Shown in pieces: positions 6,932 through 58,528 of a stretch of DNA of 61,183 nt. The first letter of the stretch is position 1. Each line of letters begins with the position of its first letter. The translations under genes and the position numbers were made by a program. The stretch is taken from the NCBI GenBank assembly GCA_017849585.1, contig JAFIGT010000028.1:1-61183 (forward strand), in the 5' to 3' direction. Source of the stretch: Verrucomicrobium sp. Lineage in GTDB: Bacteria > Verrucomicrobiota > Verrucomicrobiia > Methylacidiphilales > UBA1321. The notes below the pieces were generated by a model. That model did not search any database and was not told where the DNA came from. It worked only from the letters and a program-made list of their open reading frames with translations.

Positions 6932-7336
6932 TTAGAATTCACCTCTCAGGTCAGTATGCTTCTGGCCTTTCGGGGCGGTGGGGTTGGTTGTTGGTGTTGG
7001 GGTGGATAAGGCGGGTGATGCGACGGGAGGGCGCGGGCTCGATGCTGGCTGCGTGACTGGTGCGGCGCTTTGCGTGATTTCCTGCCTGAGTCGCTGCGAT
7101 TCGGCGCGGTGTTTTCTGCAAAACCGGATAATGGCCGATTCCGAAACCAAAATGGCGTACTGCTGCAATAGCTCGTGGATTTGCGTGGTCGATGCGCCGC
7201 GTGCGCGGAGTTGGAGTACGGCGTTTCGGTGCCGTTCCAGCAGTTCAGAGTGTCTGGGTTCGACCGTAAACCGGATGGCGGCCTCGTCTAACGTAGACGG
7301 TTTGGATTCTTGAAACGGTGGCGCAGATGCGTTCAT
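6932..7336 (-). CDS. small putative DNA-binding protein, first gene of mobilisation operon
   Basis: A 134-residue protein. The middle part (about residues 30-75, with ILVSESAIIRFCRKHRAE) has the helix content and spacing of a helix-turn-helix, preceded by RGASTTQIHELLQQY. The last 50 residues are a low-complexity Pro/Thr/Ala tail. No family is recognised with confidence. It is the promoter-proximal gene of the operon and begins 41 bases from a perfect 15-bp inverted repeat, so an obvious hypothesis is that it is the relaxosome accessory protein or autoregulator that binds this repeat. Codon use is like the rest of the operon. Confidence 0.55.
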   Translation of the reverse strand: MNASAPPFQESKPSTLDEAAIRFTVEPRHSELLERHRNAVLQLRARGASTTQIHELLQQYAILVSESAIIRFCRKHRAESQRLRQEITQSAAPVTQPASSPRPPVASPALSTPTPTTNPTAPKGQKHTDLRGEF

Positions 7337-7376: not shown

Positions 7377-7416
7377 CTACTTGGTAGCGAATTTGGCCGT
7401 TTTCGCTACCAAGTAG
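7377..7416. promoter_or_regulatory. perfect 15-bp inverted repeat, operator or oriT candidate
   Basis: CTACTTGGTAGCGAA (7377-7391) and TTCGCTACCAAGTAG (7402-7416) are exact reverse complements separated by 10 bases. The repeat lies 41-80 bases upstream of the first gene of the mobilisation operon. The same right arm recurs at 10152-10166 and, with one change, at 19782-19796, each time just before a relaxase start. That distribution is what is expected of a binding site for a shared regulator or relaxosome protein. Confidence 0.7.
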
Positions 7417-7780: not shown

Positions 7781-7987
7781 GCGTCCCTTAGGGCTAAGGG
7801 GTGGCGTGTCCTTGCGAATTGTAACCTTGATACATTGTTGAAACATGAAAGGAGTTAACTCACATTCATAGAAATCAACCTGCGATTCCGTTCGCAGTAG
7901 CCTAGGAGCATTGGCTGGATCGGCAACGATCTGGTCAAAAAGCTGCTCTGACAATATACCTTCGTTCTTCGGAATGAGGAAAATTCC
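7754..7987 (-). other. open reading frame remnant ending at intron boundary
   Basis: On the minus strand an open frame reads from the presumed 5' intron boundary (7987) leftwards, through FLIPKNEGILSEQLFDQIV and QVDFYECELTPFMFQ, to a stop at 7754. The sequence looks protein-like for about 65 codons, then degenerates into a Pro/Gly/Arg stretch read from a small inverted repeat. I do not recognise the protein. It may be the distal end of a gene split by the intron. Joining it in frame to sequence beyond the intron adds only a few codons, so the gene, if real, was already broken. Confidence 0.3.
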
Positions 7988-8449
7988 GTGAGGAGTTTTT
8001 CGAGACGGCCAGCGTTAGGCTGTCTGAGGGTTAGGCTCGGATGACAAGTCCAACAGAAGTGAACTGCTTAAAGGCATCGTCACACCCAACGAGCCAAAGA
8101 CGCTGATTAAGGCTCCGACCAAAATGGTATGCAGCCGGTTGTTCTCTCGGACACTGAGAGCACACGGACAAAAAACGGCTGCCGGTGTAAGAGGCAGGGA
8201 CTAAATCATCCATTGATGCAATCAAGGCTAACAAGATAAACCCCGCATTTCGCCTTCTCAGGAAGGCAGGCGTTTCCGTAAGGAACGCTGTTGGGATGTG
8301 GGGCATGGGAAGCTGGAGAAAGCGAATGCCGCTCTGTAATGGAGCGGATAGGGGTTGCAACATCACCTCGCCGCGTCAAGCGGGCAGACTTCCAGCCGGT
8401 CATTAATGATGAGAGAACCTGTAGAACCATCCATAGAAGGAAATAGCAA

Positions 8450-9943
8450 ATGAACGCAGACTTATTAGCGTGTGCCTCCTTCGGCAACACTCCACCCTGG
8501 GATCAGATCGACTGGCCTCAGTGTGAGCGTGAAGTGCGGAGGCTGCAAGCGCGTATCGTCAAGGCAACACGGGAAGGCCGCTGGAACAAAGTGAAAACTT
8601 TGCAATGGCTGCTGACCCACTCGTTTTACGGCAAAGCCTTGGCCGTGCGACGAGTGACGGAAAATCAAGGTAAACGGACTCCCGGCGTGGACGGAGAAAT
8701 CTGGCAAGCACCGGGAACCAAGTATAGAGCCATAGGAACGTTACAACGACGCGGCTACCAGCCACGTCCGTTACGACGAGTCTACATTCCGAAAGCCAAT
8801 GGGAAGTTGAGACCGCTGGGAATTCCGACGATGAAAGACCGTGCCATGCAAGCGTTGTATTTGCTGGCATTGGAACCCATCGCGGAAACGACAGGCGATC
8901 CCAATTCATATGGCTTTCGTCCGGCTCGGTCTACGGCAGATGCCATTGGCCAGTGTTTCCTTATGCTGAGTAAGGCGCAATCTCCTCAGTGGGTCTTGGA
9001 GGGCGACATTCGCGGCTGTTTCGATCATATCAGTCACGAATGGATGCTATGCCATGTGCCCACGGATAAGAAAATACTACGTCAATGGTTGAAAGCCGGG
9101 TATATAGAAAATCGAACCCTCTTCCCCACGGAAGCAGGCACGCCACAGGGAGGAATTATTTCCCCCACGCTGGCTAACCTGACCTTGGACGGACTGGAGA
9201 AATTGCTTCTGGAAAAGTTTCCAAAAAGCAAAACTCCCAGTCGCAAGGTAAACTTGATTCGGTATGCGGACGACTTCATTATCACCGGCGTCTCGAAAGA
9301 GTTGCTGGAAAATGAAGTTCGTCCACTGGTGGAGCAGTTTCTTCACGAGCGAGGCTTGGAGCTTTCGCCCGAGAAGACCTGCATCACTCATATCGACCAA
9401 GGGTTCGACTTTCTCGGTCAACACCTGCGCAAAAGGAACGGCAAGTTGCTGATCCAGCCTTCCAAGAAGAATACGCTTCACTTCTTGGAAAAGGTGCGCG
9501 AGGTCATCTACCGAAACCGCGGACTGAGTCAGGAATACCTGATCCGAACGCTCAACCCGATCATTCGGGGCTGGGCCAACTATCACCGCCACGTGGCGGC
9601 ATCGGACACGTTTAGAAAAGTGGACAACCTCCTGTGGCAAAGTCTCTGGCAATGGGCCAAACGTCGACATTCCGAAAAGCCTCGCCCTTGGGTGCTACGA
9701 AGGTACTGGCACCCATTGGGACGCAAATGGAAATTTGCGGCGCAATTGGAAAGGAAAACGCCGGACGGCAAAGTGGTTTGGTTCAAACTGGTCAATCCAG
9801 CCGCAACCAAAATCTACCGACACCGCAAGATCCAAGGAGCAGCAAATCCCTTCGATCCTCACTGGCGACCTTATTTTGAGGAGCGAGAGTTCTTCAAAAA
9901 ATTCGGCGTCCATCGCCCGGATACCTCAGATGATCCGTCGTGA
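8450..9943 (+). CDS. ltrA: group II intron reverse transcriptase/maturase
   Basis: A 497-residue intron-encoded protein. Reverse-transcriptase motifs are clear: RRVYIPKANGKLRPLGIPT (about 107-125), SYGFRPARS (about 159-167), GDIRGCFDHI (about 184-193), GTPQGGIISPTLAN (about 230-243) and the catalytic RYADDF (about 272-277). A maturase (X) domain follows, with LNPIIRGWANYHRH. The C-terminus (NPFDPHWRPYFEERE, then about 20 residues) stops where many relatives continue into an HNH endonuclease, so this enzyme seems to lack the endonuclease domain. Such introns often insert via single-stranded DNA at replication forks. The ATG follows AGAAGGAAATAGCAA, a good ribosome-binding site. No frameshift is seen, so the protein is probably functional. 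Confidence 0.92.
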   Translation: MNADLLACASFGNTPPWDQIDWPQCEREVRRLQARIVKATREGRWNKVKTLQWLLTHSFYGKALAVRRVTENQGKRTPGVDGEIWQAPGTKYRAIGTLQRRGYQPRPLRRVYIPKANGKLRPLGIPTMKDRAMQALYLLALEPIAETTGDPNSYGFRPARSTADAIGQCFLMLSKAQSPQWVLEGDIRGCFDHISHEWMLCHVPTDKKILRQWLKAGYIENRTLFPTEAGTPQGGIISPTLANLTLDGLEKLLLEKFPKSKTPSRKVNLIRYADDFIITGVSKELLENEVRPLVEQFLHERGLELSPEKTCITHIDQGFDFLGQHLRKRNGKLLIQPSKKNTLHFLEKVREVIYRNRGLSQEYLIRTLNPIIRGWANYHRHVAASDTFRKVDNLLWQSLWQWAKRRHSEKPRPWVLRRYWHPLGRKWKFAAQLERKTPDGKVVWFKLVNPAATKIYRHRKIQGAANPFDPHWRPYFEEREFFKKFGVHRPDTSDDPS

Positions 9944-9979
9944 AAACCGGTTCCGTTAACCCGGAACTTATAATGGCTT

Positions 9980-10052
9980 GAGCCGGATGAAATGGAAACT
10001 TTCACGTCCGGTTCTTAGGGGAGGGACTGGCAGTAATGCCAGTCCCTTACCC
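9980..10052 (+). ncRNA. group II intron domains V and VI
   Basis: Domain V starts GAGCCGGATGAAATGG at 9980 and ends CACGTCCGGTTC at 10014. It is a 35-base hairpin whose outer stem (GAGCCGG with CCGGTTC) matches the canonical catalytic domain. Domain VI follows as a hairpin, GGGACTGGCA with TGCCAGTCCC (about 10023-10046). The branch-point adenosine is expected on its 3' side, near the ACCC tail. Confidence 0.85.
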
Positions 10053-10071
10053 GGCTGCCTTTAATTCACTG

Positions 10072-10269
10072 ACATGAATTGAATTTCTACACATGATTCT
10101 TTCTATGTAGAAACTGCAATTCTCTATTACGAAGTAGCGAAATCACCGAAATTCGCTACCAAGTAGTATGAGACAAATCCTCTGGCATGTTGTTAATTGA
10201 GTCATGGTTCGCTTCGACAAACCCTGCTGCCGCAAGGACGGTGCCCTGAATTATCTTTCAGCCACAATG
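10072..10269 (+). repeat. relaxase-start direct repeat, left copy
   Basis: This segment aligns without gaps to 19702-19899 at a constant offset of 9,630 bases. It carries an inverted repeat, a TATGAGACAAATC block and the first 22 codons of the relaxase. The 3' two thirds are highly similar (roughly 15-20 mismatches in 140 bases by eye); the first 50 bases are more diverged. It is far too long and too diverged to be an insertion target duplication, so it points to recombination between two related mobilisation elements or to an old duplication. Confidence 0.85.
10134..10166. promoter_or_regulatory. inverted repeat upstream of relaxase stub
   Basis: GTAGCGAA (10134-10141) pairs with TTCGCTAC (10152-10159), and the right side continues as TTCGCTACCAAGTAG, identical to the right arm of the palindrome at 7402-7416. 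It ends 37 bases before the relaxase-stub ATG. The probable role is operator or part of oriT. Confidence 0.6.
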
Positions 10270-10281
10270 ATGCCATGCTAG
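10204..10281 (+). pseudogene. MobF relaxase, 25-codon N-terminal stub
   Basis: ATG 10204 opens a frame reading MVRFDKPCCRKDGALNYLS and so on, stopping at TAG 10279-10281. The first 18 residues match the intact relaxase at 19834 except at the N/S and L/F positions, including the tyrosine equivalent to catalytic Tyr17. Beyond codon 22 homology ends abruptly and the nitrate-cluster leader begins. The stub therefore marks the left breakpoint at which a former relaxase gene was interrupted. Confidence 0.85.
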
Positions 10282-10319
10282 TTGCTCTTGTGACGACGCC
10301 TTTACTGGAAGACTCAACT

Positions 10320-10333
10320 TTGACTTGGATCAA
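10320..10333. promoter_or_regulatory. FNR/DNR-type box upstream of DGC gene
   Basis: TTGACTTGGATCAA has two half sites, TTGAC and ATCAA, separated by four bases, close to the TTGATN4ATCAA consensus of FNR/DNR/NNR regulators. It sits 108 bases before the ATG of the DGC-domain gene. A sister site with the same flanking AAGGA lies at 17849-17862. Two such sites flanking one nitrate cluster make chance unlikely. Confidence 0.7.
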
Positions 10334-10441
10334 GGAATTCCTATTTTTTTAACTAAACGATTGATTGGTAGTGAAGAGAGCTTATCTTACCGATGGATGT
10401 CCTGCACCGATGACTTTTCACAATAACAGGGGGAATACTTT

Positions 10442-10840
10442 ATGAGCTCAACCACGTCTCCCCAGATTAAGGAAAACCCGACATTTATTTTTTCTTGTTC
10501 TGGAGGTTCGGATGCAGGTGAGATTGCAGATCGCGCGGTGCGACTTCTGTCTAAGGAAGGTGCTGGAAAAATGTTTTGTTTAGCAGGAATTGGAGGGCGT
10601 GTTGACGCTATTCTAAATCCAACCCGAAAGGCACCTCAAATTCTAGTGATTGATGGCTGCCCTCTTCAATGCGCAAAAAAAACAATGGAGCAAGCGGGAT
10701 TTTCGGATTTCCTGAACATAGAACTTTCTTCTTTTGGTATTAAAAAGGGGAAAACGCTACCTTCGGAAGAAACTATCACAGGCGTTGTTGAAAAAGTAAG
10801 AGTTGCACTGTATCAATCACGCACGAATCAGGGGCGATAA
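10442..10840 (+). CDS. DGC-domain putative zinc-binding protein
   Basis: A 132-residue protein of the DGC family, named for the motif seen here as VIDGCPLQCAKK (about residues 62-73). Conserved cysteines appear in FSCSGGSDAGE (about 15-25), FCLAGIGG (about 40-47) and the DGC motif, so a metal site is likely. The function is not known in the family. It is preceded by AGGGGG nine bases before the ATG and by an FNR-type box, and it converges on mobA (stops at 10840 and 10848), so it seems to be a co-regulated companion of the nitrate cluster. A role in metal or nitrogen-oxide handling is only a suggestion. Confidence 0.75.
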   Translation: MSSTTSPQIKENPTFIFSCSGGSDAGEIADRAVRLLSKEGAGKMFCLAGIGGRVDAILNPTRKAPQILVIDGCPLQCAKKTMEQAGFSDFLNIELSSFGIKKGKTLPSEETITGVVEKVRVALYQSRTNQGR

Positions 10841-10847
10841 ACCAAAG

Positions 10848-11405
10848 CTAAAAGTTTGGCTCATTCCAATTTCTAAATAAACATCGAGCGTCGTCATCAA
10901 TTTGTACCGAAACCATTCGTCCGACCTCTATAGCTTCAACGAGCCACTGTTGAAAGCCGCAGTCTCCACTCGTCACTTTTCTTTCAACTTGCGACAATAC
11001 CTCTCTCGGATAAAAAGCGGCCAATGGCTGGTAGGCTTTATCGCGCGCTACGACACCAACTCCTGGCACACAGTTTTTCCACAGGAAATTCAAGTAATTC
11101 GATCTCATTTCCGGAAGATCGACTGCCAGTAATAGCAGGTGACTCATCTGAGTTTGATGCAGGCAAGAAAGAAGACCTCCCATGGGACCGCAATCAGGAA
11201 ACTCATCAGGAATAATCCGATAGCCGGAATTAGCATAAAGGCCATTGAGCGGACCTGAAATGACTATCTCATTCGCGCCAGCGGCGAGGAGAGTGTCCAC
11301 TTGGTGTTGCCACAGCAATTTCCCGCCGGACATGGGAAGCCCGGCTTTGTCTCGTCCCATGCGCGTCGATTTTCCGCCAGTCAACAACGCTCCGCTAAAT
11401 TGCAT
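10848..11405 (-). CDS. mobA: molybdenum cofactor guanylyltransferase MobA
   Basis: MobA transfers GMP from GTP to molybdopterin, giving the guanine dinucleotide cofactor used by Nas/Nap-type nitrate reductases. The signature ALLTGGKSTRMGRDKA (about residues 5-20), the IPDEFPDCGPMGGL segment and LLLAVDLPEM (metal-binding Asp) are all present. The start is set at ATG 11405 because it begins right after the MOSC gene stop (11414) and gives a normal 185-residue protein; an upstream in-frame ATG would overlap MOSC. It is the last gene of the nitrate operon. Mob here stands for molybdenum and has no link to the mobilisation genes nearby. Confidence 0.9.
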   Translation of the reverse strand: MQFSGALLTGGKSTRMGRDKAGLPMSGGKLLWQHQVDTLLAAGANEIVISGPLNGLYANSGYRIIPDEFPDCGPMGGLLSCLHQTQMSHLLLLAVDLPEMRSNYLNFLWKNCVPGVGVVARDKAYQPLAAFYPREVLSQVERKVTSGDCGFQQWLVEAIEVGRMVSVQIDDDARCLFRNWNEPNF

Positions 11406-11413
11406 GTTTAAAA

Positions 11414-11875
11414 TTATATACCTGAGCGCACAATTCCGTCGCTTAAAATTCGCGCGCGTAAACCGCCGCGTCCTTGGAGCCACTTTTCAGCTCCCGGAGC
11501 TATAGCTTGGTCCATCCAATAGCAGGGTGTACATTCGGAATTCCCCTGAAACTGCACTCCTTGTATTTCAAATATCTGCCCAATGAGATTGTTTAAATCG
11601 GTTCCTGAGGTGATCACGTTACGGCGTGTTACTCCTGCTTCTATACCACTGACGCCTAATTCAAGACAAAGATCTTGAAATACTTCGGTGGAAAAAAAGG
11701 TGATTTGTCCCTTGTAATTTTCCTTGAACTCAAAAAAGCGATCTCCTCGTATTCCTTTTCCTGCGATACACTCAATTTGATCGACTTCCATCAATATATT
11801 TTCACCGGGAGGTTTGTCATGGTGGCCAAAAAAATTATGACCTGATGAGACGTAAAGGTGTCGAACTATAATCAT
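11414..11875 (-). CDS. MOSC-domain protein
   Basis: A 153-residue stand-alone MOSC domain, the beta-barrel sulphur-carrier domain found at the C-terminus of Moco sulphurases and in YiiM/YuaD-type proteins. The segments IECIAGKGIRGDRFFEFK and GVTRRNVITSG fit its conserved glycine-rich strands. A cysteine pair in SECTPCYWMD sits where the family's conserved cysteine is expected. It lies 4 bases after narK and 8 before mobA, so it belongs to Moco maturation or protection for the nitrate reductase. The exact reaction is not known. Confidence 0.8.
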   Translation of the reverse strand: MIIVRHLYVSSGHNFFGHHDKPPGENILMEVDQIECIAGKGIRGDRFFEFKENYKGQITFFSTEVFQDLCLELGVSGIEAGVTRRNVITSGTDLNNLIGQIFEIQGVQFQGNSECTPCYWMDQAIAPGAEKWLQGRGGLRARILSDGIVRSGI

Positions 11876-11879
11876 AACA

Positions 11880-13412
11880 TTAACAATGCGTTATAGAAGT
11901 TTTGCGCCAATAAAACCACCAATTAAGCGCAAAGCACGACAATGCGAATAGAGCCATAATCATATAAGCCCATGCCGGTGTACCCAAATGCTCCAAGCAC
12001 CAGCCTAGCAAAAGCGGTGGGAAAAAACCTCCAAACGCACCAAGACAACTGACAATTCCTATCACCGCTCCGGCGTCCTTGGGATTGACTGTTGGGATGA
12101 TTTTGAAAACGCTGCCGTTCCCTAATCCCGCTGCTGCGCAGATGACCATAATCACAGCAAAGAACATCAGAAAATCAGTTGGACGCAAGAATTGGGACAA
12201 GCTAAAACCTCCCAAAGCCATCACTCCGATGGCAATTGCCGTGATTCGTCCCGCGCCGAGCTTGTCCGCTGCCCATCCGCCAATCGGACGCATGATGGTG
12301 GCGATCAAGGGAGCCCACGGGGCGTAAGCCAACGGACTTGGGGCTCCACCGGGTGCTTTGATAAAGACCTCCTTGATGATCAAGGGCAGCGAGGCCCCCA
12401 TCGCCACGAAACAACCAAAGGTGAGAAAATAGAGATAGGAAAGCACCCACGTATGTTTGTCTCGGCCGACGTTCAACTGCGAGGCAAGCGTCTTGGGCTC
12501 CATCGGAAAATCCTTCGTTCCGAACCAAATTGCGGCTGAGCAAAACAGAATGAGGGGAATCCAGATAAAGGCGGCGTTCTGGAGATAGACCGATTTCGTT
12601 GCGCCGGACTTCAATGTCATCACTAACGGCGGTCCGCTCAGAGCCCCATACACAGCAAACCCGATAACAACCGGGATCGTGAATTGCGCGAGTGTCACTC
12701 CCAGATTTCCCAAACCATTAATTCCAAGCGCAGTACCTTGCATTTTCTTGGGAAACCACAATGTAACAGTAGCCATTGATGTCGCGAAATTTGCTCCCGC
12801 GATACCTGTTGCCGCCGACCAGAAGAGAAGCACCCAATATGAGGTTTTAGGATCTTGCACGGCCATTCCAGTACCCATGCACGGAATAATCATGATCAGC
12901 GTGACAAAGGCGTAACTCCGGCGACTGCCAAATCGCGAGACAATCAGGCCATAGGGAATGCGCAGCACTGATCCCAAAATGACCGGTGTGGCTGTGAGCC
13001 AAAAAAGTTGTCCCTTGGTGAAATGAAACCCACTATCGTTGAGTTTCACTGCGATGGCCGACCACATGAACCAAACCGCAAAAGCCAAGGCGAGCGATAC
13101 AAAGCTGATGATCAAGGTACGCCACGCGAGCGCCGCTTGAGAAAAGGCCTCTTCCTTGACCACTACAACGGGTACTCGCAACGGTTGCGGCAGGAACCGG
13201 AGTAAGCCCACTCCACCTAAAAACAAAATCAACGAAGCGTAGAAGGTTGGCCAGGCAATAGTCGTATCGCCGCCCAAAACCGTATTTAAGCTCGCGGTCA
13301 AAAGCCAGATTTGCAGGCTCACAATACCTATGAGTAAAACAACGATCCCAAGCGTCAAGGTGTTGGTCTTCGTCGGATGCGCTTGATTTTGCGCCAGTCG
13401 AAAATCACTCAT
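11880..13412 (-). CDS. narK: nitrate/nitrite transporter NarK, MFS
   Basis: A 510-residue major-facilitator protein with about twelve hydrophobic segments. The nitrate signature is present as FATSMATVTLWFPKKMQGTA and GINGLGNLGVT, the conserved NNP-family region with a second copy near AAAGLGNGSVFKI. It imports nitrate or exchanges it for nitrite across the inner membrane. The ATG overlaps the Rieske gene stop by 4 bases, showing tight coupling. A cytoplasmic catalytic subunit without signal peptide would need this transporter. Confidence 0.92.
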   Translation of the reverse strand: MSDFRLAQNQAHPTKTNTLTLGIVVLLIGIVSLQIWLLTASLNTVLGGDTTIAWPTFYASLILFLGGVGLLRFLPQPLRVPVVVVKEEAFSQAALAWRTLIISFVSLALAFAVWFMWSAIAVKLNDSGFHFTKGQLFWLTATPVILGSVLRIPYGLIVSRFGSRRSYAFVTLIMIIPCMGTGMAVQDPKTSYWVLLFWSAATGIAGANFATSMATVTLWFPKKMQGTALGINGLGNLGVTLAQFTIPVVIGFAVYGALSGPPLVMTLKSGATKSVYLQNAAFIWIPLILFCSAAIWFGTKDFPMEPKTLASQLNVGRDKHTWVLSYLYFLTFGCFVAMGASLPLIIKEVFIKAPGGAPSPLAYAPWAPLIATIMRPIGGWAADKLGAGRITAIAIGVMALGGFSLSQFLRPTDFLMFFAVIMVICAAAGLGNGSVFKIIPTVNPKDAGAVIGIVSCLGAFGGFFPPLLLGWCLEHLGTPAWAYMIMALFALSCFALNWWFYWRKTSITHC

Positions 13413-13933
13413 GACTTCTCTCCCGCATGAGCCTTCGGCATAGCCGAGACGTAAACTTCGTCTCCGCGCACCTCGACTTTCAATTGTGGCAACGGACGCG
13501 GCGGCGGCCCCTGCAAGACGGCTCCCGTGCGTGCATCAAACCAGCCATTGTGACAAGGGCACTCGATCTTTCCTTCCTTGGGCTGATAAAATACGGCACA
13601 TGATAAATGGGTGCATTTCTGTTCAAAGGCACGCCACTCATCCGTTTCCAAGTGAATGAGAATGTAGGGAAGTTTCGTCTCGGGAAGCGTAAAAGCCCAT
13701 GTCCCACCCAAAGGCACCTCACTGGTCTTGCACACGAGATGCTCACCTTGAACCTCCGCTGCGGGAAATAGTTTGTCCTTTACCGCGAGCCACCCGCTGC
13801 CGGCACAAAGTCCACCCGAAACGAGACAGAGAAATTTTGCGAATTCACGTCGCGACACGTGAATGGCTTCGACGCGTTCTATCGGGAAATCGGTTTCCCA
13901 ATCGGGTTTGGGCGGTAATGTTTGGTTGTCCAT
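13409..13933 (-). CDS. Tat-type Rieske [2Fe-2S] protein
   Basis: A 174-residue protein. A twin-arginine signal, SRREFAKFL (residues 27-35), precedes a hydrophobic stretch ending in GSGWLAV, so export by Tat with an uncleaved or cleaved anchor is likely. The Rieske centre is CTHLSC (cysteine and histidine ligands) and CPCHNGWFD (cysteine and histidine ligands), giving the CxH-x(n)-CxxH pattern of a two-histidine [2Fe-2S] cluster. The domain is short, like cytochrome bc1/b6f or arsenite-oxidase small subunits, not a dioxygenase ferredoxin. In this operon it may pass electrons between the quinone pool and the molybdoenzyme system. A periplasmic Rieske protein beside a cytoplasmic catalytic subunit is odd. 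Confidence 0.85.
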   Translation of the reverse strand: MDNQTLPPKPDWETDFPIERVEAIHVSRREFAKFLCLVSGGLCAGSGWLAVKDKLFPAAEVQGEHLVCKTSEVPLGGTWAFTLPETKLPYILIHLETDEWRAFEQKCTHLSCAVFYQPKEGKIECPCHNGWFDARTGAVLQGPPPRPLPQLKVEVRGDEVYVSAMPKAHAGEKS

Positions 13934-13936
13934 AAT

Positions 13937-14506
13937 TCAATCGACCACCAGTTGGGTGCTCCCTTTGGGCATCATAATGTTTACCTTGGTTTTCACGGCC
14001 TGCTTGCCGAACTGGAATGAATTCACCGGAGTGCTATTGGGTCGCGCCTTTTCAATGTCCTCACGCTTCCCGTACCATAGCGCTCCACTCGGACAAACGG
14101 TCGCGCACATCGGTTTTTTTCCGGCACTGGTGCGGTCGTAGCACATATTGCACTTCATCATGAGCTGCATCGGCTCCACTTTTTTCGGCACGCCAAAGGG
14201 ACAGGCCAGCACACAATTCGAGCACGCCACGCAACGCGCGACGTTGGCGCTATGAACAATCCCGAACTCATCCTTGGTGATGGCGTCCGCGGGGCACGCC
14301 TTCGCACAAACCGGATCTTCGCAGTGCATGCAGATCTGCACCGATGTTTGCGTCGTGGTAAAGCGATCGACGTAATCGACGCTGATCATCGGAGTCTGCC
14401 CGTTCGTTTCGCACTCGGCGCAAGCCATTTCGCACGCATGGCATCCGATGCACCGCTGCGGGTCCATGAAGAATTCCTGATCCGTCTTGAATTGCGTGTT
14501 GTTCAT
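13937..14506 (-). CDS. 4Fe-4S electron-transfer subunit, DmsB/NrfC type
   Basis: A 189-residue iron-sulphur protein with four cysteine clusters: [11 protein letters not shown] (from residue 19), [28 protein letters not shown], and [11 protein letters not shown] with [10 protein letters not shown]. This is the 16-cysteine layout of four-cluster subunits that serve molybdopterin enzymes. There is no signal peptide, so it should sit in the cytoplasm with the catalytic subunit. Its start overlaps the end of the catalytic gene by 4 bases. It is the obvious electron donor to the molybdoenzyme. Confidence 0.9.
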
Positions 14507-16719
14507 GCGCTGGCGTAGGCGTCGATTTGAGAGGCGGGAGGCGCTTGGCGTCCGACTGGTTCCAGTCGAGCGGCGCAGACTTTGAACTCGGGGATTTTGG
14601 AGATAGGATCGAGATGGCCAGAAGTGAGTTGATTGGCCGATTTACGCCCCGGCCAGTGGTAGGGAATGAAAATAGTATCCTCACGAATCGTTTCGACCAG
14701 CTGTGCCGGGAATTCAGCCGCGCCGCGACGCGTGACGACACGAACGAGATCACGATCACGGATATTGTACTTCGCTGCCAGATTGGGATGAATTTCGAGC
14801 AGCGGCTCCGGGTATTGATCCACCAGCTTTCCAATGCGACGTGTTTGTGTGCCACTCAAATATTGCGAAACAACTCGGCCCGTGGTGAGAATGATGGGAT
14901 ATTCAGCATCAGTGATTTCACCCGGTTCGCGATAGGCTACTGGCTGAAAATGAGCTTTTTTATCATCCGTCTTGAACTGCCTATCTTCCCATAAGCGCGG
15001 CGTTCCGGGGTGATCCAGCGAAGGACAAGGCCAGAAGACGCCCATGTTCTTTTCGATCTTCTCGTAAGTGATCCCAAAGTAATCGGCGGTGCCGCCCTTT
15101 GACGCCACGCGCAGCTCGTTGAAAATTGCCTCATTGTCTGGATACGTGAACCGCTTTTCTTCTCCCAGACGCTTGGCCAGTTCGAGAAGAATACTGGTAT
15201 CGGTTTTCGCTTCGCCCGGTGGCGTAATGCATTCGCGAATACGAACAACTCGTCCCTCGGCGGTCGTGACTGTGCCGTCCTCCTCTTCATGCAACGATCC
15301 GGCAAGAACAATATCCGCGTGCCGCGCTGTCTCGTTCAGAAAGAAATCGATGCAGGCGTAAAACTCCAACTTCTCCAGCGCCTCACGCACCATGTTGCTA
15401 TTGGGCAGCGAGACGAGTGGGTTAAAGCAAATGGAGAGCAGCCCCTTGATCTCACCGCGATGAATCGCTTCCAGAATTTCATAGGCGGTCAGTCCCTTGC
15501 GCGGTATTTCGGGCTCGGGAACATCCCAGACCTGGCTGATATACTGGCGATGCTCCATGTTCTCGATATCGCGATTGCCGGGAAGTTGATCGCATTTGTG
15601 TCCGTGCTCGCGTCCGCCCTGACCATTCCCTTGCCCAGTGATCGTGGCATAACCGCAGTACGGTTTGCCGATGCGGCCTGTTGCGAGAACGAGATTGATA
15701 CACGCACTGACGTTTTCAACACCCTTGGATTGATGTTCAATACCGCGCGCATGCAGCAAGAAACTTGTCTTTGCCTTGCCCCACATCTCCGCTGCGAGTC
15801 GAATCTTTTCCTTCTCGATACCTGTTGTGCGCTCTGCCCAGTCGAGATCATAGCCTTTGATCGCTTCGATGGATTTATCAAAGCCGCTCGTGCAGTTATC
15901 GATGAATTCGTGATCAAGCCAATCGTTCTCCACCAATTGATGCAGGATTGCGCCGTACAAAGCGGAATCGCGCCCCGGTCGAATCGGGAGATGCAGGTCC
16001 GCCGTACGAGCAATCGGCGTGAGTCGCGGATCGACAACGATCAACTTCGCTCCATTATCGCGCGCCTGCCAAATCCAATGCGTAAGAGTCGGAAACGTCT
16101 CGCTCACGTTTGTCCCGCAAATGATGATCACCTCGGCGTGAACGAGGTCGGTGAAATTATTGGACGCACGGTCGAGTCCGAAAGCTTTCTTGTTCCCCGC
16201 TCCAGCACTCACCATACAAAGACGTCCGTTGTAATCGAGGTTCTTTGTCTTCAAGGCCACGCGCGCAAATTTCCCGACGAGGTACGATTTTTCATTTGTC
16301 AGCGAAACACCGGAAAGCATGGCGAAACTGTGGGGGCCATACTTCTGCTGGATACGCCGAATTTCTGAGGCAGTTCGATCCATCGCCTTGTCCCAAGCCA
16401 CAGGACGAAAACCCTCACCCTCAACGCGCTCCAGCGGATGGAGCAGGCGGTCCGGGTGATTATTTTGCAGATAACGCTGTACACCCTTGGGGCAGAGCCG
16501 CCCTTGATTGAAGGGGAATTCTTCCCACGGCTCAAAACCAACAATCTGGTTGTTCTTCACCAAAAGCTGAATGCCGCATTGCATGCCGCAGAAGCAGCAA
16601 TGGGTTTTTACCACTTTATCCGGTTCATCACGTCCGGCGTAACCTTCGGGTGACGGATAGTTTTTATGCGGCCCGAATTGTTCGATCAGACGCTCAGGGG
16701 ATACGGGAAGTTTTGCCAT
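14503..16719 (-). CDS. molybdopterin nitrate reductase, Nas/Nap-type catalytic subunit
   Basis: A 738-residue DMSO-reductase-family enzyme. The N-terminal [4Fe-4S] site is formed by Cys41, Cys44, Cys48 and Cys76 ([17 protein letters not shown]). The molybdenum ligand is a cysteine, Cys168 in YNGRLCMVS, as in Nap/Nas enzymes and unlike NarG (Asp) or DmsA (Ser). Later segments [18 protein letters not shown] and [18 protein letters not shown] are typical of cofactor binding in this clade. No Tat signal is present, so it should be cytoplasmic, and there is no NasA-type C-terminal [2Fe-2S] extension. Neighbours (4Fe-4S, Rieske, cytochrome b-like protein, NarK, Moco genes) and the FNR box support nitrate reduction with quinol as donor; an assimilatory role is possible. 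The neighbouring genes do not match the standard Nar, Nap or Nas gene order. Confidence 0.85.
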
Positions 16720-16735
16720 GATTTTCCTTTGTGAA

Positions 16736-17782
16736 TCAACCGAAGTAGGAACCTGACTTTTTGCGCGCGGCCAAATGGGCCTTGGCCAAAGCAGCGCGTT
16801 TCCCTTGCGGGCTTAAATCAAGATGCGATGTCCCGTCCTTGAGATCGTAATTGAATCCAAGCTTCTTGGTGACTTCCTTCAAATCGTTGATGTGCAGTTT
16901 CGATGCGAAGGGCTGTTCGGTATGAGGGCAAATCGCCTGTTCGCCAATTTCCCCTTCCTTGCGGTAGATCGCCACGCCGAGTTGTGCCGGGCGTTGAAAG
17001 AGATGGAAAAACTTGCCGAAGGGCAACCAGATCAAAAAAAGGATCACACTGATTGCATGTGAGATGGCCATGAATTGATGCGCCTTCCCCTGCATGAATT
17101 CGTAATCCCACGTTAGTCCCAAACCCGTGACTGAAATAGCCAGCAGCAGGATCAAAGGGAGCCAGTCACCCTCAAACGTTTGGATCGCAATTTGCCCCGC
17201 GTCTGTCAATCGCCGACGCATCATGAAAGTGACGCCAATGATCACCAGCACGGAGCACCAGTTGAGAATATGGAACATATTAAAGGCGATCCACGTATGC
17301 AGCGGAAACTCCATCGTCTTGAAACCCCAGAAATAGGCTTCGTAAGTATCGATCGTGCCTTGCTTCAACCCGAAATGAATCCAGCCAAACGTCAGAGGAA
17401 TCGTCACCGCAAAGGCTATCATACAACCCACTACGAGCGAAAGATGCGCGATCCAGCGTTTAGTGCCGCGGTGATAGATGAACTTCTGGCAGACGAAATC
17501 GTTGAAGAAATGCTTCGCCAGTTCCCACCCGTAAACGAACATTTTCCTGCTGAAAAACAATTGCCAGCCCCGCACCCAGTAGCGCCATGTGGGCGGGCGC
17601 TGGAGCCAGACCACATACCGATAGGCGATGCCGAAGCAGGCAAAGATCGTTCCAAAAAGATAGGCGATGAGCGCCCCGTCGAAGTTTTGTAAATTCCGCG
17701 ATCCCACAATCACGGATGCAATGAGCCCCAAGGTCACCACAGTTGCAACAAGAACCGCTTTAAGATTCAGTGTCTGGAACAA
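16736..17782 (-). CDS. cytochrome b-like membrane subunit
   Basis: A 348-residue protein with about six hydrophobic segments (roughly residues 10-28, 36-58, 108-132, 160-185, 207-228, 236-258). Histidines inside or near membrane segments ([33 protein letters not shown]) could ligate haem, as in NarI/DsrM-type quinol-oxidising cytochromes. After residue 260 a soluble tail of about 90 residues faces the cytoplasm and ends in a Lys/Ala-rich stretch. It is the first gene of the nitrate operon and starts 67 bases from the FNR-type box, 16 bases before the catalytic gene. A membrane anchor that feeds electrons from quinol to the iron-sulphur subunit is the best guess. The family assignment is approximate. 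Confidence 0.7.
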
Positions 17783-17848
17783 GCCTCACCTCCCATTGAC
17801 GGTATAATGGTCACCAACGACTTATAGGACACAAACTGTATCACGACC

Positions 17849-17862
17849 TTGACCTGGATCAA
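17849..17862. promoter_or_regulatory. FNR/DNR-type box in divergent nitrate-moaA promoter
   Basis: TTGACCTGGATCAA differs from the box at 10320 by a single base and keeps the same downstream AAGGA. It lies 67 bases from the cytochrome b-like gene (minus strand) and 78 bases from the moaA ATG (plus strand), so it could control both directions. Confidence 0.75.
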
Positions 17863-17939
17863 GGATTTAGAATGTTTTCACGTTTTTTAAACCTTTAGCC
17901 TTTGATGAGAACGTAAGATAAGAGTAGTTGTTCTCTATT

Positions 17940-18908
17940 ATGGATGCTTTGGGCCGGATTATTGATTATTTGCGCATCTCCGTTACCGACCGCTGCAACG
18001 AACGCTGCCTCTATTGCATGCCTGAAAGATACAAAGGTTGGGCACAGCGTTCCGATCACATGACAGCAAACGAAATTGTCCAGATCGCCCATAGCGCCAC
18101 GACATTGGGTTTCCGTAAATTCCGACTCACAGGTGGAGAACCACTCCTCCGCCACGATATTGTTGATATTGCCAAAGGCCTCTGGGAATTGCCGGGAGTA
18201 CAGACTCTTGGAATTTCCACCAATGGCACTCGTTTATCCGCATTAGCCGAAGATCTCAAACAAGCGGGAGTGCGCTCTATCAACGTCAGTCTGGATACCC
18301 TCGATGCAACGCGCTATCGCACCATTACAGGCGGCGATCTAAATCAAGCTTTGGAAGGTATCGAAGCGGCACTTTCCGTCGGCTTTGAAGTGATCAAACT
18401 GAATTGCGTGCTCATGCGCGGAGTGAACGAGGAAGACATACTCCCCTTGATCGATTTTGCGGCGAAAGGGGGCATGCCCCTGCGGTTTATCGAGCTGATG
18501 CCTCTGTCACGTACTGACGCCTTGAATGAATCCAATTTTCTCTCAATCGGAGAAATCATGCGACATATTCAGCTGCACGGCAATCTACTCTCTCTTCCTG
18601 GGTATCAACCGGGTCACGGGCCAGCCCGCTATTATGAATTTCAGCCCTCGGGAGCTAAACTTGGCTTTATCGGAGCACTAACCAATCCCCACTTCTGCGA
18701 AAGCTGCAACAAGCTCCGGCTGACAGTTGACGGCAAACTGCGCCCCTGCCTCGGACGCCATGGTGAAATTGATCTTCTTACGCCGCTACGCTTGGGTGCA
18801 ACCGATTCCGAAACACTTCTTCGTACTGCTATTGCCAATAAACCAGAGAACCATGAATTCTCCGATTGTTACACACCTTGGCGTCCGATGACGGCGATCG
18901 GAGGATAA
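17940..18908 (+). CDS. moaA: GTP 3',8-cyclase MoaA
   Basis: A radical SAM enzyme that makes the first molybdenum-cofactor intermediate from GTP. The N-terminal cluster motif is Cys19, Cys23 and Cys26 (DRCNERCLYC). The second cluster is at FCESCNKLRLT and LRPCLG near residues 257-285. The protein ends in Gly-Gly (TAIGG), the conserved tail needed for activity. ATG 17940 is preferred over a TTG four codons upstream. It is divergent from the nitrate operon, with the FNR box between, and is followed directly by moaD. With 322 residues it has normal length. Confidence 0.95.
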   Translation: MDALGRIIDYLRISVTDRCNERCLYCMPERYKGWAQRSDHMTANEIVQIAHSATTLGFRKFRLTGGEPLLRHDIVDIAKGLWELPGVQTLGISTNGTRLSALAEDLKQAGVRSINVSLDTLDATRYRTITGGDLNQALEGIEAALSVGFEVIKLNCVLMRGVNEEDILPLIDFAAKGGMPLRFIELMPLSRTDALNESNFLSIGEIMRHIQLHGNLLSLPGYQPGHGPARYYEFQPSGAKLGFIGALTNPHFCESCNKLRLTVDGKLRPCLGRHGEIDLLTPLRLGATDSETLLRTAIANKPENHEFSDCYTPWRPMTAIGG

Positions 18909-19259
18909 ATGCTCCACCATTCCCATTCAGACCAACCAGAAGGCTCGATCACGACGCTACGAGTCTTGTTTTTCAGTACAGCACGTCAAGCTGTAAAAGC
19001 GTCGGAAACCCAGATTCCCTGCTTCCACTCCTTTGTCCAAAACGAGCTGTGGAGCACGTTATTATCTGTCTATCCGGAGTTGGCCCAACTCCGCCCGCAA
19101 CTTCGACTCGCGCGGAATGGGGAGTTTGTGCGGGATGATGAGATATTTAAACCCGGCGACGAAGTGGCCATTATTCCGCCAGTCTCTGGAGGATGGAAAC
19201 CAGCACGGCCAGTGCCCACTTTATCAGTCGTAGCGGCAGGCAGCGCAAGAAATGGGTGA
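18909..19259 (+). CDS. moaD: molybdopterin synthase small subunit MoaD, C-terminus lost
   Basis: The start ATG follows the moaA stop directly, with GGAGGA before it. The ubiquitin-like MoaD fold is recognisable: LRVLFFSTARQA at the start and FVRDDEIFKPGDEVAIIPPV towards the end. MoaD must end in a free Gly-Gly, which is thiocarboxylated as the sulphur donor. Here SGG (codons ending at 19193) is followed not by a stop but by 22 more codons read out of frame from a transposase remnant. The native stop was evidently replaced by the insertion at about 19191-19193. The encoded protein would lack a usable C-terminus, so this copy is probably inactive unless the tail is removed. No moaE follows. Confidence 0.85.
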   Translation: MLHHSHSDQPEGSITTLRVLFFSTARQAVKASETQIPCFHSFVQNELWSTLLSVYPELAQLRPQLRLARNGEFVRDDEIFKPGDEVAIIPPVSGGWKPARPVPTLSVVAAGSARNG

Positions 19260-19664
19260 AAGTATCGGTGGCGGTGATGGCGTGGGGGGGGGCCGAGTAA
19301 TGACAAGACCCAAGCCTGGAAACTTCTGGAGCGCTCCTTTGCCCAAACCAAGCCGCCTCTGCTTTACGCCGATGCCGGTTACGATGCCGAATGGATTCAC
19401 GGAGTCTGCCGAGAAGACCTTGGCATTGGCAACACCGTCATCAAACCCGCCCGATGCGCCGCCGATGGCACTCGGCGCGGCGAATATAGAGCCCAAATGT
19501 CCGGGCAGTTTCTTAAACGACATCACTACGGGCTTCGCTGGAAAGTCGAAACCTACATCAGTGGACTCAAACGCACCACCGGCTCCACTCTCAACTCTCG
19601 TAACCCTCGGGCACTCCTCAAGGAAGCCGCCTTCAAAGTCCTGGCCTACGCCTTCAATCGTTAG
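19193..19664 (+). pseudogene. DDE transposase remnant, truncated and frameshifted
   Basis: The reading begins METSTASAHFISRSGRQRK at 19193, fused to the end of moaD, and matches the segment just after the first catalytic aspartate of a DDE transposase. It runs into a G-run (19284-19292), where a small deletion shifts the frame; the second part, GPSNDKTQAWKLLERS onward, is open to TAG 19662-19664. The C-terminal segment contains RRGEYRAQM and YGLRWKVETYISGLKRTTG, with the catalytic Glu in WKVET. The N-terminal third and the terminal repeats are not seen. It is the same family as the tail at 1-102. Confidence 0.8.
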
Positions 19665-19701
19665 CTTCCTCATACCTATTCAAAATCGTTTCAACAGAGC
19701 A

Positions 19702-19899
19702 ACATGAATTAAAATCTCCAGATCTATTTCGTTTACGTAGATTATGTGGTTCTATATTACGAAGTAGCGAAATATGGAGAATTCGCTACTAAGTAGTATG
19801 AGACAAATCATCTTGCTTGTTGTTAATTGAGGCATGGTTCGCTTCGATAAACCCTGTTGCCGCAAAGACGGTGCCCTGAGTTATTTTTCCAGTCACATG
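19702..19899 (+). repeat. relaxase-start direct repeat, right copy
   Basis: Gap-free counterpart of 10072-10269 (offset 9,630 bases). Here the repeat runs on into the intact relaxase gene, so this copy keeps the functional start while the left copy is the orphan. Confidence 0.85.
19764..19796. promoter_or_regulatory. inverted repeat upstream of intact relaxase
   Basis: GTAGCGAA (19764-19771) pairs with TTCGCTAC (19782-19789), continuing TTCGCTACTAAGTAG, one base different from the arms at 7402 and 10152. It ends 37 bases before ATG 19834. It is an operator or oriT candidate for the relaxase. Confidence 0.6.
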
Positions 19900-22458
19900 G
19901 CGAAGCGGGATTATCTGACAGAGAGTGGCCAGATAGAGATGGTCTGGTATGGCTATGGGGCGGCCAGGCTGGGGTTGTCTGGTCAAGTTCACGAGGATCA
20001 TTTTGCCCGACTTTGTTCCGGCCATGATCCGTTCACTGATGAGAGTCTCATGTTGCGGGACAAGGGTGAGAACCGTCGTATCTGCTATTTCGGACAAATC
20101 TCCGCACCGAAGGATGTTTCCATTGCCTATCTGTTAGGTGGTGATACCCGCATCGCCGGATGGTGGCAGGAGTCAGTACGGGAAACGCTGGAAGAAATCG
20201 AGGCGATGACCGGAACCCGTGTCCGGTTAGGGGCGGCGATGGAAGATCGGGTTACTGGCAATATGGTGGCGGCGGTTGTCACTCACGATAGCAGTCGCGC
20301 CCTTGATCCACAGTTGCACACGCATGTGTGCATTATTAATGTGACATTTGACTCGGTGGAAAACCGCTGGAAAGCGGTTCAGCCGAACGGCTATTTCAAG
20401 TATCAGAGTTACCTTCGGGAGGTCAGTTATAACAAACTGGCTGAAAAGATGAAGGTGGGTGGCTACCAGATTGAGAAAGCCCGGTTCATTGGATTCAATA
20501 TCAAGGGGTTCCCCGCCGATTTGAGGAAAGATTTCAGCAAGCGCCGGGAAGAGATTGAGCGTGTGGCCAGTATCAGGAATGCCCACAGTCAAGATGAACT
20601 CCAGAGTATCGCCGTTAAAACCCGTGCGGATAAGGTGCATCGAACGCCGGAAGAGCTAAAAGCCTCTTGGCTGAAGGAAGCTGCTGATTATCTCCACAAA
20701 ATCCAGCCAATCATTGCGGCGGCGCAACCGACGGTTGGACGCTCCTTGGCTGTAACGCCGTCTCATACGATGGCATTGGCTCAGGCACATCTGTTTGATC
20801 GGTTGTCGGTGGTGGATGAGCGTATTCTGTTGCGGGAAGCCTTGATTGTAAGCCGGGGCGACTTGACGCTCGCTGAATTAAAACGCGAAATAACGCAACG
20901 AGTGAAGGCGGGCGACTTATTACAACGTGGGAATTTCATTACAACTCCCGAGATGGTGGCGCTGGAAAAGTCGTGTATCGACTGGAGCCGGGAAGGGAAA
21001 GGTTGCTACCGGGAGATGGGAGATTATGCGGCCAGTGCATTCCTGAGCGCGGAGCAGAATCATGCCGCTGAGACCTTGCTTGCGTCGCGTGACCGCCTCG
21101 TTGTGCTGGTTGGTGATGCCGGAGCTGGTAAAACCACTACGCTGTCAGCCATTGTGCGGGGCATCCACAATGCGGGTGGGCTGACATTTTCCTGTGCGCC
21201 GTCATCTGGCGCGACGCTTGAACTGAAAGAGAGGCTTGGTATTCAGTCTGAAACCGTGCAGCAACTGTTGGTCAACGAACGCCTGCAAATGCAGGTGGCG
21301 AATCGAACCATTATTGTCGATGAAGCAGGGCTGCTGTCGATGCACCAGATGGCTGGACTTTGCCGCGTGGGGGAAAGGCACAACTGCCGTCTGCTGCTGG
21401 TCGGTGACGTCAAGCAGCATCACTCGGTGGAAGCGGGGGATGCCCTGCGAGCCCTCCAGAAATATGCTGATGTGGAGACGGTGCGATTGCAGGAAATTCA
21501 TCGGCAAAAAGATGAGGAGTACAAGCAGGTAGTGAAATATCTGGCCGATGGGCTGCCGTACTCGTCTTTTGCAAAACTGGATCAACTCGGGGGAATACAG
21601 CAGGAAAAGGATTGGGATAAACTGCTGAACGAGGCAGCAACGCGCTATGTCGAAAAAATCGCCTCTGGACAATCGTGCCTGGCGGTGTCTCCGGTTTGGT
21701 CAGAGGTTAATGCGTTCACGGCTGTGGTGCGGGAGCGGTTGAAGGAAAGTGGGGCGTTGGGAACTGGGGAAAGGCTGTATAAAGCTGTCCAATCGCTGCA
21801 ATGGACTCCTACCGAAAAATCACAGGTGGAAAATTATCAGGAGGGCGACATGCTGACATTTCACAGGGATAGTGGAGGTCAGAGCAAACATGAAATGGTC
21901 TCGGTTGTCTCCAAAGGCGGGGAAGGTCTTATCTTGGAGCGACAGGACGGTTCACGGTTGGCATTTGATCCACGGGAGCGTAAGGGCTTTGACGTTGGGT
22001 TGCCCCGCATGCTTGCGGTGGCTCCCGGTGAAAAACTTCTGGTGCGGGCCAACTTCGCTGCAAGCCGGTTGAAGACGGGCGATATTGTGACGGTCAAGGA
22101 ATTGAAGGAGGATGGCTCGATTGTGCTGGTGGATGGTCGTGAAATTCCGGCGCACTTTCGTCAATTCACGCATGGATATGCAACGACTTCGCATACCGCT
22201 CAAGGCAAGACCGTCGATCACGGTATTCTCGTTTTGGGAGAGGAGGGATATGCTGCGGCCAATCTCAAACAGGCTTATGTGAGCAATTCCCGGTTCAGCT
22301 ATACCCAGACAGTCTTCATTACCGACAAAAAGCTGGCTTTTGAAGCAATGGCCAAGTTCCAAGAGCGTCCGCTTGCTGTCGAAATAGTCCGTGAATCTGT
22401 TGAGCCAATTACCGAAAAACAAGGCATGAATGTGAAATTGGACGGTTATCGTTACTAG
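19834..22458 (+). CDS. MobF-family relaxase/helicase, TrwC/TraA-like
   Basis: An 874-residue conjugative relaxase that would nick oriT and unwind the transferred strand. The catalytic tyrosine region holds Tyr17 and Tyr27 (Tyr18 and Tyr26 in R388 TrwC). The three-histidine metal site is His151, His162 and His164 (THDSSRALDPQLHTHV), nearly the same spacing and numbering as TrwC. A RecD-like helicase follows: Walker A VGDAGAGKTTT (about 426-436), Walker B-like IIVDEAGLLS, and a C-terminal TTSHTAQGKTVDHGI. It is full length with no frameshift. The coupling protein is 14 kb away on the other strand, separated by the intron and the nitrate cluster. It stops at 22458 and runs straight into a broken rhs segment. 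Confidence 0.93.
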   Translation: MVRFDKPCCRKDGALSYFSSHMAKRDYLTESGQIEMVWYGYGAARLGLSGQVHEDHFARLCSGHDPFTDESLMLRDKGENRRICYFGQISAPKDVSIAYLLGGDTRIAGWWQESVRETLEEIEAMTGTRVRLGAAMEDRVTGNMVAAVVTHDSSRALDPQLHTHVCIINVTFDSVENRWKAVQPNGYFKYQSYLREVSYNKLAEKMKVGGYQIEKARFIGFNIKGFPADLRKDFSKRREEIERVASIRNAHSQDELQSIAVKTRADKVHRTPEELKASWLKEAADYLHKIQPIIAAAQPTVGRSLAVTPSHTMALAQAHLFDRLSVVDERILLREALIVSRGDLTLAELKREITQRVKAGDLLQRGNFITTPEMVALEKSCIDWSREGKGCYREMGDYAASAFLSAEQNHAAETLLASRDRLVVLVGDAGAGKTTTLSAIVRGIHNAGGLTFSCAPSSGATLELKERLGIQSETVQQLLVNERLQMQVANRTIIVDEAGLLSMHQMAGLCRVGERHNCRLLLVGDVKQHHSVEAGDALRALQKYADVETVRLQEIHRQKDEEYKQVVKYLADGLPYSSFAKLDQLGGIQQEKDWDKLLNEAATRYVEKIASGQSCLAVSPVWSEVNAFTAVVRERLKESGALGTGERLYKAVQSLQWTPTEKSQVENYQEGDMLTFHRDSGGQSKHEMVSVVSKGGEGLILERQDGSRLAFDPRERKGFDVGLPRMLAVAPGEKLLVRANFAASRLKTGDIVTVKELKEDGSIVLVDGREIPAHFRQFTHGYATTSHTAQGKTVDHGILVLGEEGYAAANLKQAYVSNSRFSYTQTVFITDKKLAFEAMAKFQERPLAVEIVRESVEPITEKQGMNVKLDGYRY

Positions 22459-22476
22459 TAGTAACCCGGCCAATCG

Positions 22477-22747
22477 GAATGACCGACATGACGGCCTGCA
22501 AGGTCAGATCGGCGCGGGATTCCTTGCGAGTGATGGGGTCAACGTAATCGCCGTAGATGTCCGTTGTGCCAAACGAAGTGGCGATGCTATTGGCTAGACC
22601 AAAAGTGGCGGCGTTGAGCATGGAGCCGGTAAGGCGCTGCTCGCTACGGTCGGTGATGGTGTAGCCGTACTCGTTCTGGACGAAGCTACGGAACGAGGTC
22701 TGGAGGCTCTTGCCGAACCCGCCATCTGGGGCCCGCTCGTTGACGGG
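22477..22747 (-). pseudogene. displaced copy of Rhs core end
   Basis: This 271-base segment aligns without gaps to 25651-25921 inside the large rhs gene. Its translation contains GFGKSLQTSFRSFVQNEYG and MLNAATFGLANSIATSF, then TTDIYGDYVDP, and stays open. It has no start and no Rhs core upstream. Its distal end breaks off close to the relaxase stop codon (22458), so the toxin tip it once carried is gone. Confidence 0.9.
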
Positions 22748-38700: not shown

Positions 38701-38807
38701 AATCAGAACATTAATCAGAACGTATATAATGTCAATTATGTTTTGAGACGAAAATTAATCATTAATTTCAAATAACTTACGTAGTTTATAGGGATCGGGA
38801 TAGATAC

Positions 38808-38834
38808 GAGGGTTCGATTCCCTTCACCCGCTCC
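38808..38834 (+). other. tRNA-Gly 3' end, probable island attachment site
   Basis: GAGGG TTCGATT CCCTT forms a T-arm (38808-38824). CACCCGC (38825-38831) is the 3' acceptor strand that would pair with GCGGGTG, the usual 5' end of tRNA-Gly, followed by T and CC. The 5' half of the tRNA is absent, so this is only the 3' part, as left at one end of an element that integrated into a tRNA gene. The matching copy and the intact tRNA should lie at the other end, outside the window. The identical core may begin a few bases earlier, near 38801. Confidence 0.8.
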
Positions 38835-38877
38835 CTCTTTTTGCAATCTTCGGCCTTCTGCTGCCGATAGATAAGGG

Positions 38878-58507: not shown

Positions 58508-58528
58508 TTAGGGTGAAAGGATCAAACT

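Follow-up and report, generated by a model that had tools for sequence, protein, structure and literature searches.

This work describes a probable hybrid integrative and conjugative element (ICE) on a 61,183-nucleotide stretch of DNA from an uncultured Verrucomicrobium sp. (GenBank assembly GCA_017849585.1, contig JAFIGT010000028.1), referred to here as the window. The window is contig C9 of a metagenome-assembled, 43-contig draft genome (G000) that also contains contigs C3, C4, C15, C16, C20, C21, and C24. In this element, a block of ∼10 kb of nitrate and molybdenum cofactor (Moco) genes, followed by the remnant of an insertion sequence (IS), separates two copies of a relaxase start. We favor the reading that the element arose by fusion of two related ICEs, probably arranged in tandem, via deletions. 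The first ICE would have supplied the type IV secretion system (T4SS), the coupling protein, the origin of transfer (oriT), and a relaxase stump; the second would have supplied the intact relaxase, the Rhs cargo, and the integrase. The proposed order is T4SS (on C21), coupling operon, oriT with a group II intron, left operator with relaxase stub, cargo, IS remnant, right operator with intact relaxase, Rhs gene, integrase, and right attachment site (attR). Its integration site is the 3′ terminus of tRNA-Gly(TCC), and most of the element lies within the window.

The repeated segment occupies positions 10072 to 10269 and 19702 to 19899. A preliminary description of this DNA, made from its letters alone, had reported a gap-free 198-bp repeat at a constant offset, and alignment bears this out: the offset is 9,630 bp throughout, and 151 of 198 positions are identical, with 85% identity in a 156-bp core (10104 to 10259 and 19734 to 19889). 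A DNA search across the genome retrieved the second copy at E = 2.9e-46, given which the similarity is not due to chance; the same search returned a weaker third copy on C4. Each copy contains one operator palindrome and one relaxase start. The left copy, as delimited by alignment (10072 to 10281, plus strand), carries the operator 1 palindrome (10134 to 10159) and a 25-codon relaxase stub, whose frame reads MVRFDKPCCRKDGALNYLSATMMPC followed by a stop (10204 to 10281). The left and right frames match clearly over codons 1 to 19 and have codon 22 in common, after which similarity ends; the left copy is thus truncated, as first described, with codon 22 the last one shared, but its frame runs to 25 codons rather than 22. 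In the right copy, the operator 1 region (19702 to 19833, plus strand; alignment and IS comparison) contains its palindrome at 19764 to 19789 (repeat search and alignment). As had been claimed, this copy continues into an intact gene, which encodes an 874-amino-acid (aa) MOB_F relaxase-helicase (19834 to 22458, plus strand). The assignment is based on TrwC PF08751 (240 bits, against a cutoff of 25), MobF NF041492 (187 bits, against a cutoff of 100), and similarity to TrwC/TraI structures. A plasmid search retrieved only distant MobF relaxases, with ∼30% identity to the window protein.

The pattern of differences between the copies bears on their origin. The palindrome arms are identical and the loop is changed; the three changes within codons 1 to 15 are all synonymous, and nonsynonymous changes begin at codon 16, close to the junction. 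The longest exact match is 19 bp. Relative to the C4 copy, there are 21 changes in the left copy and 14 in the right, with no clear excess on either side, and the divergence between the two copies (15 to 24%) exceeds that between the backbones of the two congeneric species (8 to 10%). Because the arms and early codons are constrained, the rates are similar, and the divergence lies above the species level, the copies fit an origin as functional relatives from two elements, each of which kept a working copy; the decay of a duplicate after insertion fits them poorly. The earlier statement that the copies are not a target duplication agrees with the 19-bp longest match and the synonymous early changes, which suggest that the copies are homologues, each derived from a different one of two related elements, and not the result of recent duplication.

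Upstream of the left copy lies the coupling operon, all on the minus strand. It encodes a VirD4/TraG-type coupling protein (T4CP; 4256 to 5746; Pfam T4SS-DNA_transf and TraG-D_C; 73% aa identity to the C4 module), a small conserved protein (5734 to 6213; 52% to the C4 module, with the same order in relatives), a ParA-like ATPase (6210 to 6926; CbiA/ParA, under the Pfam cutoff, order again the same in relatives), and a second small conserved protein (6932 to 7336) that adjoins the intergenic region in most relatives. A Pfam search with this last protein gave no match, and it is a possible candidate for binding the palindromes. A palindromic operator 2 (GTAGCGAA...TTCGCTAC; 7377 to 7409), found by repeat search and present in the C4 module too, lies upstream of the operon. 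The DNA between relaxase and coupling operon was extracted from relatives for comparison. In the C4 module the arrangement is uninterrupted: the relaxase gene, a short intergenic stretch that holds two palindromes, and four genes, the coupling protein being last. This layout, which the preliminary description had proposed seeking in relatives, was found at 14 loci in this genome (including C4 and C15) and in related genomes, with the coupling operon directly divergent from the relaxase; a metabolic cluster lies between them at none of the 14. Beside two further relaxases (L078 and L083), no coupling operon was present in the stretch examined. The uninterrupted layout at all 14 loci identifies the window arrangement as the derived one. 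Among the genome contigs scanned, the sole named relative was an uncultured Verrucomicrobia metagenome-assembled genome.

The right copy begins precisely where an IS ends. The IS remnant (19194 to 19701, plus strand; 82% identical to a copy on C3) has an intact right end and an internal deletion: the first ∼408 bp of the 945-bp IS are gone and the 3′ part of the transposase gene is kept. On C3, the IS copy also terminates in CAACAGAGCAA, and the DNA beyond it is unrelated. On its other side, the remnant is fused to moaD just past the Gly-Gly codons, and the moaD stop is lost. Because the right copy starts at the IS end, at least one junction is attributed to the IS together with a deletion; the left junction is bracketed by position ∼10270 on one side and, on the other, the FNR-like box at 10320.

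We predict a single oriT in the window (7785 to 7811, plus strand), consisting of the hairpin CCCTTAGGGCTAAGGG followed by GGTGGCGTGTCC. Besides the window, 13 of 14 relatives have a hairpin with a GGTGGCGTGT-like core in this intergenic region, where stem sequences differ and pairing is kept, and the combination was found in 0 of 3,400 shuffled sequences. The oriTs of R388 and F provide the basis for the analogy by which this conserved hairpin and core are predicted to be oriT. The motif occurs once, outside the repeated segment; no second oriT-like motif was found in the window, and both repeat copies lack one. The cargo is flanked by the predicted oriT on one side and the relaxase gene on the other, rather than by a pair of oriTs, and for this reason relaxase action is not expected to yield a circular junction at the two copies.

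The right boundary of the element is marked by attR (38806 to 38848), the 3′ end of a tRNA-Gly(TCC) gene, recognized from collinear congener DNA and a 43-bp match to the tRNA-Gly on C21. Beside it lies the gene for a tyrosine integrase (37486 to 38700, minus strand; Phage_integrase PF00589). Homology to the congener (G002) starts exactly at 38806 and continues rightward at 90 to 92% identity; in G002, an intact tRNA-Gly(TCC) ends at the matching point with collinear DNA directly after it, giving an empty site, and in the window only the tRNA-Gly 3′ end is present, next to the integrase. Elsewhere in the genome, a single near-identical tRNA-Gly(TCC) 3′ end occurs; it lies on C21, and T4SS genes (TrbI/TrbL/VirB4-like) follow it in the orientation that the window module predicts. 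These T4SS genes are mostly 68 to 81% identical to those of the C4 element, and the window relaxase and T4CP are 72 to 73% identical to their C4 counterparts. At its end, C21 holds the 5′ part of an IS, and a 3′ part of one lies at the start of the window. The relaxase and T4CP are thus in the window and the T4SS is on C21 between the tRNA-Gly and the IS end, a join between C21 and C9 that we infer. Because of the tRNA-Gly end, the T4SS orientation, the level of identity to C4, and the two IS halves, we conclude that C21 from ∼17.0 kb onward, together with the window as far as 38.8 kb, would make up one ICE of roughly 65 kb. Judged by the integrase beside attR, the intact tRNA in the congener, and the T4SS on C21, the mobile unit of which the cluster had been called a passenger is an ICE rather than a plasmid.

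In the fusion that we favor, the likeliest starting point would be a tandem array of two such ICEs at tRNA-Gly. One deletion would have fallen inside the first relaxase gene, and another would have run from the end of moaD into the IS upstream of the second relaxase, the two together trapping the nitrate/Moco cargo of one ICE at the seam. A tandem array with these two deletions would give exactly the window arrangement, and tandem-then-deletion is the most economical scenario. Such arrays occur in this family, as two of its ICEs lie head to tail on C4 (49471 to 186355) with an integrase in each and an 18/18 (18-bp) repeat of a tRNA-Asn end between them. (The second C4 ICE also carries Cas7 and Csd1, of a type I-C-like CRISPR system, and an AcrB-family efflux gene.) The window itself is not classed as a tandem ICE; it is probably only the product of one. 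Several points weigh against this history. Between the copies there is no remnant of a second-ICE integrase or att, and only one att-like site was found in C9; with no internal att or integrase surviving, we infer the tandem step. Recombination without a tandem would yield an identical product. The divergence comparison of the copies is limited to ∼200 bp, a small sample; the IS at the C21 and C9 ends has other possible partners (C15 and C16); and the flank upstream of the tRNA on C21 has just 69% identity to the G002 flank. The hybrid keeps one of each transfer component and may still transfer with nitrate metabolism as a passenger.

Other histories were weighed against the fusion of tandem ICEs. 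The strongest competitor, to which we nevertheless give a rather small chance, is a hybrid formed without a tandem array, in which an incoming plasmid or circular ICE fragment carrying the cluster, the IS, and the relaxase recombined with the resident element, either through homology of the IS or through illegitimate joining. The right junction is indeed an IS, and related copies exist on C3, C15, C16, and at the start of the window; however, these copies are only ∼80% alike, a poor substrate for homologous recombination, and the 5′ end of the remnant is missing rather than recombinant. It is improbable that one ICE duplicated its own operator and relaxase start upon insertion of the cluster, with the dead left copy diverging afterwards. 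The identical offset without gaps and the closer similarity of the two copies to each other than to C4 would suit this origin, against which stand a divergence exceeding that between congeneric species, constraint on arms, spacing, and early codons, and similar rates in both copies.

Relaxase-mediated recombination at oriT, which the preliminary description had suggested, would have captured the cluster through a site-specific exchange that involved a pair of oriTs. An intact MOB_F relaxase is indeed encoded by the element, and relaxase-mediated site-specific recombination is known for this family (TrwC). Yet the oriT-like motif occurs once, outside both copies, and the right copy starts at the IS end, making this mechanism very improbable; of the original proposal, the general idea that two related elements trapped a passenger is supported, and the relaxase/oriT mechanism is not. 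We assign the lowest probability of all to an assembly chimera. The genome is a 43-contig metagenome-assembled draft whose contig ends overlap at IS copies, but the 19-bp longest exact match of the repeat copies is far below the 141-bp contig-end overlaps of this assembly, and repeat-driven misassembly is unlikely for that reason; in addition, the IS remnant is only ∼82% identical to its best other copy.

Profile searches and the retained 3′ part of the transposase gene confirm that nitrate/Moco genes and a transposase remnant fill the space between the copies, as initially described. From the left, an FNR/CRP-like box (TTGACTTGGATCAA; 10320 to 10333, plus strand; a pattern match of putative function) precedes a DGC-domain protein gene (10442 to 10840, plus strand; Pfam PF08859). 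On the minus strand follow genes for a MobA-like Moco guanylyltransferase (10848 to 11483), a MOSC-domain protein (11414 to 11875), a NarK-type nitrate/nitrite transporter (11880 to 13412), a Rieske Fe-S protein (13409 to 13933), and a 4Fe-4S electron-transfer subunit (13937 to 14506), all from profile searches. Next are a NasC-like nitrate reductase catalytic subunit (14503 to 16719, minus strand), for which the best NCBIfam model, NasC, scored 836 bits, below its cutoff of 1,100, and which has 95% aa identity to its G002 counterpart, and a cytochrome-like membrane subunit (16736 to 17782, minus strand) with weak similarity to QmoC, a neighbor kept in G002 and G012. The block closes on the plus strand with MoaA (17928 to 18908; TIGR02666, above cutoff) and MoaD (18909 to 19259; ThiS family). 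FNR/CRP-like boxes (TTGACNTGGATCAA) occur at 10320 and 17849, in the promoter regions at both ends of the nitrate cluster.

MoaD normally requires a free C-terminal Gly-Gly. In relatives the protein ends ...IPPVSGG; in the window, translation continues past the terminal Gly-Gly into the IS remnant, which adds an aberrant tail of 21 residues, and this MoaD is therefore probably inactive, barring processing. G002 has the five-gene operon that extends from NarK to the cytochrome-like gene at 84% identity, lower than the 90 to 92% of the backbone. There it lies near the end of G002 contig C3, beside a transporter-like gene, and no match to the window conjugation genes was found in the 19 kb examined; the preliminary description had named an ancestral nitrate cluster at the same place in relatives as contrary evidence, and the G002 operon is located elsewhere. 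The G002 Moco genes are on a separate contig, in an arrangement common to C20 of the source genome. The reduced identity, the different context, and the separate Moco genes suggest that the window cluster is an assembled block, probably horizontally acquired. The source genome has further nitrate/Moco loci on C20 (68 to 72 kb; MoaA, MOSC, MobA, and a NasA-like gene) and on C24 (8.7 to 10.3 kb; NarK and a DGC gene).

The coupling operon and the left copy are separated by a group II intron of ∼2.2 kb (7812 to 10055, plus strand), absent from the preliminary description, which is inserted directly 3′ of the predicted oriT core; it was delimited by comparing three related introns, with its 3′ end placed within a few bases. 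Its identity follows from the presence of ribozyme domains (Rfam RF02012 at 7879 to 8030 and RF00029 at 9978 to 10055) and an intron-encoded reverse transcriptase/maturase (8450 to 9943, plus strand; RVT_N, RVT_1, and GIIM), in which a Pfam search detected no endonuclease domain. In the window, on C4 near 149 kb, and on G036 contig C228, the intron starts right after the hairpin and GGTGGCGTGTC(C/A); a fourth related intron (in G003) occupies a different site, so that association with oriT holds for 3 of 4, a small sample. When the oriT core joined to the intron 5′ end was sought across 384 genomes of the class, only the two known cases were real, and the other ten loci had no intron. Somewhat short of an even chance, in our view, a group II intron lineage targets the oriT hairpin of this ICE family, inserts 3′ of the GGTGGCGTGTC core, and rides on conjugation. 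In G036, which belongs to a family other than that of the window (shared with G012), a homologue of the 134-aa gene, the oriT motif, and the intron precede an operon of Moco genes for MobA, MOSC, MoaC, MoaD, and MoaA (9845 to 18937 of locus L159), the second case of Moco genes beside this oriT. Because it resembles an operon of its own family (G012; tblastn matches weaker than 1e-3 were disregarded), this operon is probably an independent neighbor of the intron. Among the papers searched, there was no direct precedent for group II introns at oriT. The intron lineage at oriT in three elements is perhaps more novel than the hybrid ICE itself and could connect retrohoming with conjugation.

Tandem accretion followed by deletion is known for ICEs, including streptococcal tandem and hybrid ICEs (PMC5053989). 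The window element resembles these ICESt1-type elements in its integrase, its attachment site at the end of a gene, its modular set of conjugation genes, and, in the proposed history, a tandem array followed by deletion; it differs in occurring in Verrucomicrobiota, in having a MOB_F relaxase with a VirB-type T4SS, and in its seam, which lies between oriT and relaxase and is filled by nitrate/Moco genes. With R388 TrwC and F TraI, it shares a TrwC relaxase domain joined to a helicase and, as its predicted oriT, a hairpin with a short core behind it, whereas its 874-aa relaxase is only ∼30% identical to the nearest plasmid relaxases and is divergent from the T4CP operon. In Sphingopyxis granuli TFA, a genome with putative ICEs, nitrate genes were treated alongside horizontal acquisition (PMC4741004); the enzyme there is NarGHI, and no split conjugation module is described. 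Ll.LtrB of pRS01 is likewise a group II intron tied to a relaxase/oriT region (PMC4256276), but it lies in the relaxase gene, unlike the window intron with its position 3′ of the predicted oriT core and no detected endonuclease domain. Among the papers searched, no direct precedent was found for ICEs carrying nitrate and Moco genes, and little on ICEs in Verrucomicrobiota. As metabolic cargo uptake by ICEs, the case is a clear and fairly ordinary example; it presents a metabolic block trapped in an ICE transfer module with no transfer component removed, for which the evidence includes the layout without interruption, an empty site, and both junctions, and it documents a Verrucomicrobiota conjugative family with a predicted oriT.

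Two further observations concern the remainder of the window. The Rhs gene is cargo between the intact relaxase and the integrase. Just past the relaxase, a 285-bp stretch occurs at 22463 to 22747 and again at 25637 to 25921 (85% identical); it duplicates a portion of the Rhs gene (3,329 aa) from the 3′ end and resembles a displaced Rhs tip. At the right end (54608 to 61183) are the type I restriction genes HsdM, HsdS, and HsdR, of which 526 aa of HsdR are read before the contig ends.

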